Origin: an uncultured Pelagibacteraceae bacterium
GTDB lineage: Bacteria; Pseudomonadota; Alphaproteobacteria; Pelagibacterales; Pelagibacteraceae
Length of the DNA: 64,000 nt
Assembly (NCBI GenBank): GCA_902517535.1
Contig: CABYCK010000002.1
Span: 36,591-100,590 of the forward strand
Direction of reading: 5' to 3'
Shown here: in pieces, positions 2,620 to 12,575 of the stretch
Position numbering within the stretch: position 1 is the first letter of the stretch
How the letters are laid out: each line of letters starts with the position of its first letter
The notes under the pieces: generated by a model
Told to the model about the DNA's origin: nothing
Databases searched by the model: none
What the model saw: only the letters and a program-made list of their open reading frames with translations
Translations under genes and position numbers: made by a program

Positions 2620-2677
2620 TCCACAAAATTTAAATCTACCCTTGTAGTAATTAAATTGATCTTGATATACTCATATT

Positions 2678-2767
2678 GAGGTTGGCATCAGGTGGATGTT
2701 TCATAAACCCGGTCAGGTCTGAAAAGAAGCAGCCGTAGTGAAAATTATTCAGGTTGTTGCCTGCCTC
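2678..2767 (+). ncRNA. ffs: Small (4.5S-type) SRP RNA
   Basis: Conserved apical motif GGTCAGGTCTGAAAAGAAGCAGCC; terminal pairing GAGGTTGGCA with TGCCTGCCTC (8/10 matched). Ends approximate. Confidence 0.88.
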
Positions 2768-2773
2768 TTAAAA

Positions 2774-7519: not shown

Positions 7520-7661
7520 CCCCATCTGTATTGGTACCTGAGAGATTTACTCCTTCGGTGAGATTCTATCCCTTTCCAGATCTATGTTTCTTACGGTCCT
7601 TTTGCCTGAGAGTTTCCGGGGTGGTTGCTCCTTCGGCGCTATAAATTAATAGTCTCTCCCG
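7520..7661 (-). promoter_or_regulatory. Tandem glycine riboswitch upstream of malate synthase
   Basis: Reverse complement reads cGGGAGAGAC...GCGCCGAAGGAGCAA...CTCTCAGGCAAAAGGACCG (aptamer 1, about 7593-7661), then ATCTGG...CACCGAAGGAGTAA-ATCTCTCAGGTACCAATACAGAT (aptamer 2, about 7520-7583), then the glcB start. Confidence 0.93.
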
Positions 7662-7783
7662 TTTTTTTTATGATAAGTACCAAGCTAGCACATAAAGTCA
7701 AATGTTAATTAATTTAAAAATATATCGTCAATTTATTGACTTATTTTATATCTATCTGTGGTAGTATTGAAATTATAACTAAT

Positions 7784-9252: not shown

Positions 9253-9298
9253 AATTAACGGGACACTTAGCTTTAATCAGTTTTTTGTCCCGGTAATT
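9253..9298 (+). other. Strong inverted repeat/hairpin downstream of csp
   Basis: AATTAACGGGACA (9253-9265) vs TGTCCCGGTAATT (9286-9298): 12/13 complementary, 20-nt loop; no U-tract after it. Confidence 0.6.
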
Positions 9299-9337
9299 CT
9301 TCCTTGAAAAAGACACAATTATTTCTTAAATAGTCGT

Positions 9338-9421
9338 TGATGATTAACAATTTTAAAATTTTTATACTAAACTTACATTCTCACAGAATGCACGCTAGGC
9401 TATTGCTTAGCTAATTCATCA
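9338..9421 (+). ncRNA. Candidate structured RNA of unknown class
   Basis: Outer stem TGATGATTA/TAA(T)TCATCA encloses two perfect or near-perfect hairpins: CATTCT-cac-AGAATG and GCTAGGC-tatt-GCTTAGC. Confidence 0.4.
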
Positions 9422-9432
9422 AATAATTTAAA

Positions 9433-9460
9433 TTACAAATTAATTAATAAATAATATAAT
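9433..9460 (+). promoter_or_regulatory. Candidate promoter of tRNA-His/hisS
   Basis: TTACAA (9433-9438), 16-bp spacer, perfect TATAAT (9455-9460), 10 bp before the mature tRNA 5' end. Confidence 0.5.
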
Positions 9461-9470
9461 AAGGAGTAAT

Positions 9471-9547
9471 GCAGCAGTAGCTCAGTTGGTTAGAGCACTA
9501 GTTTGTGGAACTAGGGGTCGGTGGTTCGAATCCACCCTGCTGTACCA
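9471..9547 (+). tRNA. tRNA-His (anticodon GTG), CCA encoded
   Basis: Cloverleaf: GCAGCAG/CTGCTGT acceptor, CTAGT-TTGTGGA-ACTAG anticodon arm, GGTGG-TTCGAAT-CCACC T arm, encoded ACCA. Confidence 0.96.
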
Positions 9548-9551
9548 AAAA

Positions 9552-10886
9552 ATGAAGAAAGATAAAACAAACAAACCTTCAAAAGAATTACCATTAGGGT
9601 TTGTTGATAGACAAGAAAAAGAATTACTCGTACGTGATTTTATAATTTCTAATATTAAAGAAGTTATGATTAAGTACGGATTTCAATATCTTGAAACTCC
9701 AAGTTTCGAGTATTCTGATAGTATTGGTAAATTCTTACCTGATAAAGACAGACCAGATGAAGGTATTTTTTCATTTCAAGATGAAAATAAATGGTTATCG
9801 CTAAGATACGATCTTACCGCACCTCTTGCTAGGTATATAGCAAAAAATTATTTAGAAATTCCAAAACCATTTAAGAGATATCAGTTAGGAACCGTTTGGA
9901 GAAATGAGAAACCAGGTCCTGGAAGATTTAGAGAATTTTTACAGTTCGATGCTGACTACGTAGGAACAAAAAGTTTACAAGCAGATGCCGAGTTGTGTGT
10001 TATGATTTCGGAAATTCTTGAAAAATGTGGCCTAAACAAATCAGAATATATAATAAAAATTTCATCGAGAAAAATTACTGAAAAATTATTTAACAATCTA
10101 AATGTAAACGACACTCAACAGAAGCTTAATGCCTTAAGAGCTTTAGACAAAATTGACAGACTAGGTTGGGAAAGTGTTAAACAATTACTAGGAAAGGGAA
10201 GAAAAGATAAATCAGGAGATTTTACCAAAGGAGTAAATTTAAGTTCAGAAAATATAGAAGTTATAGAAAAAGAATTAAAGAAAAAATCACCTAACTCGGA
10301 AGACTTAATAGAGATTTTAAAAATATTTAAAGATTATAATTTTAGCAATTATGAATTTGACCCATCTATCATAAGAGGCCTTGAATATTATACTGGCACT
10401 ATATTTGAGGTAAATTTAAAATTTGATGTTAAAAATAATAAAGGTCAAGTAATTCAATTCGGTTCCATTGGAGGTGGAGGTAGATATGATAATTTAGTAA
10501 ATAATTTTGGCAATTACGATGCACCCGCAACTGGCATATCTATAGGTTTAGATAGACTAGTTTACGCCTTAATGCAAAAAAAAGAATTTAAAATTAAACA
10601 ATCTAAACCAGTTGTCATCTGTGTTTTTAATAAAAAATCGATGAAAGAATATATAGGGTTACAAATAATTTTAAGAGAAGCTGGAATTAGTACTGAAATT
10701 TATCCTGGCGAGAATAAATTAAAAAAACAAATGGAATACGCAAATAAAATAAAATCCCCTGCCGTTATTCTTTATGGAGAAGATGAAATTAAATCAGGAA
10801 AACCAACCTTAAGAAACTTAAGTTCTGGTAAAGAAAAATCAATTGAAATCAAAGAATTAATTAATGAAATCAAAAAAATTATCTGA
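9552..10886 (+). CDS. hisS: Histidyl-tRNA synthetase (alphaproteobacterial type)
   Basis: LPLGFVDRQ, LRYDLTAPLARYIA, RNEKPGPGRFREFLQFDADYVG, GGGGRYDNLV. ORF-track start 9486 lies inside the tRNA. Confidence 0.94.
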   Translation: MKKDKTNKPSKELPLGFVDRQEKELLVRDFIISNIKEVMIKYGFQYLETPSFEYSDSIGKFLPDKDRPDEGIFSFQDENKWLSLRYDLTAPLARYIAKNYLEIPKPFKRYQLGTVWRNEKPGPGRFREFLQFDADYVGTKSLQADAELCVMISEILEKCGLNKSEYIIKISSRKITEKLFNNLNVNDTQQKLNALRALDKIDRLGWESVKQLLGKGRKDKSGDFTKGVNLSSENIEVIEKELKKKSPNSEDLIEILKIFKDYNFSNYEFDPSIIRGLEYYTGTIFEVNLKFDVKNNKGQVIQFGSIGGGGRYDNLVNNFGNYDAPATGISIGLDRLVYALMQKKEFKIKQSKPVVICVFNKKSMKEYIGLQIILREAGISTEIYPGENKLKKQMEYANKIKSPAVILYGEDEIKSGKPTLRNLSSGKEKSIEIKELINEIKKII

Positions 10887-11901
10887 AGCTATAATTAAAA
10901 CTTTTAAGAACAACGGTTTTGTATTGTCAGAACCGGATGTCCTATTAGACTCGGAGTATATAATTGAAAGATCAGGAGAAAAATTTAGGAGTTCCATGCT
11001 CACATTTGAGAGAGAGGATGGAAAAATTATGTGCTTAAGACCAGATCTAACAGTAGCTTCTTGTATAAATTATTTACAGAACAAGACTTCTTCAAAAATT
11101 TATTACTCTGGCCAAGCATACAGAAGATCTAACAATAAAGGTTCTAATTTTATTAACGATCAATTAGGGATTGAAATATTAGGTTCAAAAAATCAAACTC
11201 AAGATGATTTCAAGGTTATCAGTACAATTTTAAACTCTGTAAAAAAGATAAAAAATAAAAAAATACAAGTCAAGGTTGGGGATATCAGTTTATTTAAAAG
11301 TTTGATCAACGCGCTCGACATGCCTGAAAGATGGAGGCTAAGGTTAATCAGACACTTTTGGAGACCAGATTATTTTGAAGAACTTTTAAAACGACTGGAA
11401 AAAAATACAGATATCGATGCAGTTACTTTTGATAGCGATAAAAAGAGATTTTATGAGATGACAAAAGTAGAAAAGGATAAAATTATTGCTGGGAGGACAG
11501 TGTCAGAAATTTTAAAAAGGTTTGATAAAAAGATTAAGGATCCAAGATCTTTTAGCGATGGAAAAAAAATTGTTAGGATTATTAAATCCTTCTTAAAGAT
11601 AAATTGCAAATTGTCAAAATTAGATAATAAATTGTTAGATTTTGCAAAAAATAATAATCTTAAAAAAAATATTTTTAAAGATTTTAAATCAATTCAAAAC
11701 TTAAAGAAGCTTAATCAAGAAGTGAATTTTATTTCAAATTTTGGCAGAGATGTAGAGTACTACACTGGAATAGTATTTGAAGTTTTTGCAGGTAAGAAAG
11801 AAATCGCAAGAGGTGGACGTTACGATGATTTACTTAAAAGTTTAGGAGCTAAAAAAAATATTCCAGCTGTAGGAGCCGCAATTAACTTAAAAAACATATG
11901 A
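10864..11901 (+). CDS. hisZ: ATP phosphoribosyltransferase regulatory subunit
   Basis: HisRS-like fold without a full synthetase; LRPDLTVASCINYL, ARGGRYDDLLKSLG; directly followed by hisG. Confidence 0.88.
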   Translation: MKSKKLSEAIIKTFKNNGFVLSEPDVLLDSEYIIERSGEKFRSSMLTFEREDGKIMCLRPDLTVASCINYLQNKTSSKIYYSGQAYRRSNNKGSNFINDQLGIEILGSKNQTQDDFKVISTILNSVKKIKNKKIQVKVGDISLFKSLINALDMPERWRLRLIRHFWRPDYFEELLKRLEKNTDIDAVTFDSDKKRFYEMTKVEKDKIIAGRTVSEILKRFDKKIKDPRSFSDGKKIVRIIKSFLKINCKLSKLDNKLLDFAKNNNLKKNIFKDFKSIQNLKKLNQEVNFISNFGRDVEYYTGIVFEVFAGKKEIARGGRYDDLLKSLGAKKNIPAVGAAINLKNI

Positions 11902-12575
11902 AAGATTTAATTACTATAGGCCTCCCCAGCAAAGGTCGACTGAAGGATAAAGCAATAACTTTTTTTGATAACAGTGGTTTGAAAATTTTACAAAGTGAGA
12001 AAGAGAGAAATTATTTTGCGACAATAAAAGATAAGCCCAATATTAAGATCATCTTCCTACACGCTAAAGAAATCATTCAAAGATTGGGAGATGGAACTTT
12101 AGACCTAGGTATATCTGGATTAGATCTTTTAAATGAGTCTGAAAAAAATTTACGAAATAAAATCAACATTAGACGTAAACTTGATTTTGGAAATGCAAAT
12201 TTAGTAGTTGCAGTACCAGATGATTGGATTGATGTGCAGACCGTTGCTGATCTCGAAGAAGTGTCATTTGACATTAGGTCTAAAAGAAATACTAGACTAA
12301 GAGTAGCAACCAAATATCCAAATTTAACTAATGATTTTTTAATTTCAAAAGGTATTACTCAATATAAGATTATACCAAGTCTAGGAGCCACCGAAACATA
12401 TCCATTTATTGGTTCAGCTGAGATTATCACCGATATAACCTCATCAGGCAAAACCTTAAAAGATAATAATTTGAGAGTACTTAAGGATGGATTAATTTTA
12501 AAATCATCTGCATGCTTATTTATTTCGAAAAACAATAAATCAAATTTCAACTCAATATTTGATAAAATAAAATAA
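11898..12575 (+). CDS. hisG: ATP phosphoribosyltransferase catalytic subunit
   Basis: IGLPSKGRLKDKAI, DLGISGLDLL, ITDITSSGKTL. Confidence 0.93.
   Translation: MKDLITIGLPSKGRLKDKAITFFDNSGLKILQSEKERNYFATIKDKPNIKIIFLHAKEIIQRLGDGTLDLGISGLDLLNESEKNLRNKINIRRKLDFGNANLVVAVPDDWIDVQTVADLEEVSFDIRSKRNTRLRVATKYPNLTNDFLISKGITQYKIIPSLGATETYPFIGSAEIITDITSSGKTLKDNNLRVLKDGLILKSSACLFISKNNKSNFNSIFDKIK

Follow-up and report, generated by a model that had tools for sequence, protein, structure and literature searches.

The 64,000-nucleotide stretch of DNA analysed here (the window), from an uncultured Pelagibacteraceae bacterium, carries in the gap between csp and tRNA-His a short open reading frame with three histidine codons, placed directly 5' of the genes tRNA-His, hisS, hisZ and hisG (Table 1). 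The original prediction had assigned to this gap a structured RNA that no ORF explained; this last point was mistaken, the structure being spanned by a frame of 24 codons, which is shorter than the usual length cut-offs. Both inner hairpins sit within its codons, and the last 12 codons consist of hairpin 1, the His codon CAC and hairpin 2. The encoded peptide matched none of the known protein families in NCBIfam and Pfam. A repeated element is ruled out, for the hairpin 2 pattern is found at one place per genome and the leader occurs once in the window's own genome. The window is SAR11 DNA: the close relatives of its hisS belong to uncultured Pelagibacteraceae and to strain HIMB058. The tRNA-His has A73, and G-1 is not encoded, as in the derived alphaproteobacterial type that has been described from SAR11 (PMC3937112). 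The window also holds two ordinary Rfam matches, a glycine riboswitch (7584-7671, minus strand) and a small SRP RNA (2677-2771, plus strand).

Table 1. Features of the csp/tRNA-His gap and of the genes that follow it (window coordinates)
Feature	Position	Strand	Basis or remark
Leader promoter-like site: TTGAAA (9304-9309), 16-nt spacer, TTAAATA (9326-9332)	9304-9332	+	Position-specific conservation
Possible outer stem: TGATGA (9338-9343) with TCATCA (9416-9421)	9338-9421	+	Native pairing better than permuted
Leader ORF, 24 aa: MINNFKIFILNLHSHRMHARLLLS, then stop	9340-9414	+	Start, stop and frame constant in all loci read; profile matches; pN/pS
Three His codons of the leader ORF	9376-9378, 9382-9384, 9391-9393	+	
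Hairpin 1: CATTCT-CAC-AGAATG	9376-9390	+	Compensatory changes; inside the ORF
Spacer CAC (3 nt) between the hairpins	9391-9393	+	
Hairpin 2: GCTAGGC-TATT-GCTTAGC	9394-9411	+	Begins directly after the last His codon, ends at the stop codon
tRNA-His promoter-like site: ATTACA-17-TATAAT	9432-9460	+	10/12 consensus match
tRNA-His (GTG anticodon)	9471-9547	+	ARAGORN and Rfam
hisS, histidyl-tRNA synthetase	9552-10886	+	ORF; ATG 4 nt past the tRNA CCA end
hisZ-like gene (ATP phosphoribosyltransferase regulatory subunit)	10864-11901	+	ORF; named from sequence and gene order
hisG-like gene (ATP phosphoribosyltransferase)	11898-12575	+	ORF; named from sequence and gene order

The three stems of the original prediction were all found where it had placed them. 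The segment 9338-9421 has a folding energy of -17.9 kcal/mol, where dinucleotide shuffles give -7.3 +/- 2.2 (z -4.8, none of 200 as good), and the intergenic region as a whole, which matches no Rfam family other than tRNA, gives z -3.3. Comparison gives good support to the two inner hairpins. Among 26 distinct sequences, related and uncorrected for phylogeny, paired cells reach 96.4% with two-sided changes in 8 cells, which none of 500 shuffles attained, and with the partner shifted by 1-3 columns pairing falls to 18-40%. The two-sided changes all fall within hairpin 1; hairpin 2 varies one-sidedly in this set, and the case for it is therefore made by its substituted sequences in other genera and by a recoding test. 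Synonymous recoding of the window ORF weakens the fold (z -3.2 over the full ORF, with 2 of 2000 recodings as good), and none of 2000 recodings of the hairpin 2 codons folds as well; the test agrees in other genera, being strong where both hairpins exist and weaker elsewhere. The outer stem, originally given as TGATGATTA (9338-9346) with TAATTCATCA (9412-9421), would join the start-codon region to the stretch just 3' of the stop codon. Comparison is suggestive only: native pairing scores -4.09 against -3.69 +/- 0.07 kcal/mol for permuted partners, with relatedness uncontrolled, and the stem is part of the minimum free energy structure in 123 of 164 loci, again uncorrected for relatedness. If real, it could restrict the leader to one ribosome.

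In an alignment of 68 distinct copies of the region, the ATG and the stop codon are constant and gaps within the ORF come in multiples of three; start and stop are likewise constant over 248 loci, 164 of them distinct. As estimated from related sequences and uncorrected for phylogeny, pN/pS is 0.19 for the last 12 codons and about 0.8, hence nearly unconstrained, for the N-terminal part. The share of His codons in the leaders far exceeds the 1% background of the neighbouring genes. Since recoding weakens the folds and the last 12 codons show a pN/pS of this order, both layers, peptide and RNA structure, appear to be under selection.

Of the 169 genomes of the genus, 142 gave a match to the intergenic region, mostly over nearly its whole length, and hisS is absent from all six of the checked assemblies of the genus that gave no leader hit. 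Profile E-values for the leader reach 1e-15 within the genus and mostly lie below 1e-4 in a second one; weak hits within frames of 240-260 aa, obtained in an order-wide search, were set aside as unrelated. Throughout the family (12 genera), a leader ORF stands at every readable tRNA-His/hisS junction. The peptides diverge between genera, keeping two to six His codons (SHRHHLHAG.., NHTHHHTHAKH.., NAKHHFAHA..), and in other genera they end, just before the stop, in HSHRVHARLLLS, NAKHHFAHARLLLS, THRHHFHAGCTLAI, STHRHHPHAEHALSY, NHTHHHTHAKHGLGN or RHSHHLMHAKHMLG. Divergent members of the largest genus have leaders ending in THRHFHAG, KHRHINHAG or STHRICLHSL, and a few leaders, for instance one ending in NIYHLTHAKQKLGN, have two His codons only. 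Constant across genera are the His codons, the last of which is CAY, and a hairpin beginning right at that codon. Hairpin 2 is present in every leader locus read, even where its sequence has been replaced: most leaders carry GCTRRGC-nnnn-GCTTRGC, others GCTGGC/GCTAGC and a third group ATAGCC/GGCTAT, and the hairpin loop sometimes contains the stop codon. Hairpin 1 occurs as CATTCT/AGAATG, CACTCT/AGAGTG, CACACT/AGTGTG or TGCAAAA/TTTTGCA, and in several genera it was not predicted. Comparison thus establishes, at the level of sequence, an in-frame ORF, His codons in every genus, tRNA-His and hisS always lying 3', and a selected hairpin at the last His codon.

In the sister family of the order, the leader lies directly before hisS, without an intervening tRNA, and is an ORF of 11 codons (e.g. 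MFKFKHHHYHI or MIVFTHHHIHI, then stop), whose stop codon is followed at once by a hairpin and then by a CCCCUUUUU-like sequence. Judged by its sequence, this arrangement closely resembles the textbook form of a His leader and lends support to reading the window ORF in that way too. A CCCC(C)U-rich stretch, 3' of the sister-family hairpin and before hisS, is conserved. Upstream of hisS at 28 other alphaproteobacterial loci no comparable leader was found, only three long chance ORFs.

As to transcription, a -35-like element at -36 to -31 and a -10-like element at -14 to -8 relative to the ATG recur in the 164 distinct loci. Such promoter-like spacing would place the start of transcription at the ATG or one or two bases from it, and no Shine-Dalgarno sequence precedes the leader ATG in the window; the leader mRNA probably begins at the ATG, i.e. 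it is leaderless. Promoter-like matches near the site that precedes tRNA-His are no commoner than in shuffles. On the csp side, a hairpin with a variable loop (9258-9293, GGGACA...TGTCCC) is conserved in many relatives and is replaced in other genera by hairpins with a U-run; it is probably the end of the csp transcript, and is consistent with a csp unit ending 5' of the leader. At every one of the 249 tRNA-His loci the hisS ATG comes 3-5 nt after the tRNA CCA end, with no room for a Shine-Dalgarno sequence. Given so narrow a gap, hisS must be translated either as a nearly leaderless message after excision of the tRNA or from a transcript still holding it.

The ORF is likely a ribosome-mediated histidine leader, short and probably leaderless, which would control the tRNA-His-hisS-hisZ-hisG operon in cis. 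Its translation would sense charged tRNA-His through ribosome stalling. With charged tRNA-His scarce, a ribosome would wait on the His codons and hold hairpin 2 open, along with either hairpin 1 or the outer stem, thereby allowing more tRNA, more synthetase and more of the first enzyme of histidine biosynthesis to be made; with charged tRNA-His plentiful, it would clear the ORF, the hairpins would form and expression would fall, either by Rho-dependent or paused termination or by RNA processing and decay. Rho is encoded. A more specific version, which we put forward tentatively and think possible rather than probable, dispenses with a terminator and joins the downstream tRNA gene with the leaderless His ORF and the hairpin fixed at its last His codon: RNA processing, or else factor-dependent termination, would depend on where the ribosome stands, and cutting out tRNA-His would yield the nearly leaderless hisS message.

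Two features of a classical his attenuator are present, namely an ORF with control codons (two to six His codons in every leader read) and cognate genes downstream; a U-run intrinsic terminator and a mutually exclusive antiterminator were not found. No terminator-like site was seen between the leader and the genes, and when the 5' arm of hairpin 2 was made unavailable, no competing partner shared across genera appeared. The 3' arm, so released, can pair with the D arm of the tRNA in a few loci but not in other genera, and mutually exclusive structures of the classical kind were dropped. Because these two defining features were sought and not found, the leader is not classed as a classical attenuator; it is regarded as a variant ribosome-mediated leader, as neither a terminator, a consistent antiterminator nor a Shine-Dalgarno sequence was found and as leader and synthetase are separated by a tRNA gene. 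It might still be argued that terminator and antiterminator hairpins escaped recognition by the searches, for instance a terminator lacking a U-run, and the sister family, with its His leader, hairpin and CCCCUUUUU-like sequence, as well as the suitability of such a design for the genes controlled, speak for it. Yet the missing terminator-like site, the lack of a cross-genus partner for the blocked arm and the absence of competition between hairpins 1 and 2 make this reading unlikely. A T-box riboswitch was rejected: with the E limit raised to 10, its covariance model still matched nothing.

Even less probable is the free-standing structured non-coding RNA first proposed, in which the ORF would be incidental. 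What stands of that proposal is a real and conserved structure, with compensatory changes and without an Rfam family, and the locus does have a promoter-like site of its own; but the constant start codon, stop codon and frame, gap lengths divisible by three, the low pN/pS of the last 12 codons and the persistence of His codons as the sequence changes point instead to the folded coding sequence of a leader peptide. A small peptide acting in trans, or using its histidines to bind metal, in place of a cis sensor, would account for the purifying selection on the C-terminal residues, and the leader peptide peTrpL of Sinorhizobium, which acts in trans, is a precedent (PMC7298713). Across genera, however, only the His codons and the geometry of the hairpin persist, the tails LLLSL, GCTLAI or AG before the stop being merely the residues that each hairpin encodes, and the N-terminal half is nearly unconstrained; we give this possibility very little weight.

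Enteric bacteria, bacilli and other groups are known to have His leaders (PMC2965389, PMC9413887). Like hisL of enteric bacteria, the SAR11 leader is a short ORF with His codons before histidine genes and with hairpins beside the control codons; unlike it, the SAR11 leader has its hairpins within the ORF, probably has no Shine-Dalgarno sequence, showed no terminator or antiterminator, matches no Rfam family and would control tRNA-His-hisS-hisZ-hisG. In bacilli, a histidine leader peptide before hisZ and a hisS paralogue was found through intrinsic terminators (PMC2965389); a His-codon ORF before hisS or hisZ is common to both, whereas the SAR11 leader lacks the intrinsic terminator and is separated from hisS by a tRNA gene. 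The trpL leader RNA of Sinorhizobium meliloti, another alphaproteobacterial leader ORF, starts at its ATG (PMC7298713), as is predicted for the SAR11 leader, but it responds to tryptophan and has terminator and antiterminator structures (PMC7298713). A survey of structured RNAs in Candidatus Pelagibacter ubique, concerned with conserved intergenic structures in the same group of organisms, excluded intergenic regions containing tRNAs from its ranked list (PMC2704228), where the present locus would accordingly not appear, and this may be why the leader went unreported; no mention of the locus was found in its main text, and a partial search of the literature found no earlier description of a SAR11 His leader.

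To sum up, the locus would put a tRNA gene, the cognate synthetase and the opening step of the amino-acid pathway under one signal, and it offers a compact test case of a leader that seemingly works without a terminator, a consistent antiterminator or a Shine-Dalgarno sequence; if the terminator-free design were true, one switch would set both the supply of tRNA and that of synthetase. SAR11 bacteria rank with the most abundant cells of the ocean and are generally regarded as poor in gene regulation. The order-wide retention of an amino-acid leader suggests that SAR11 has kept control of this kind.
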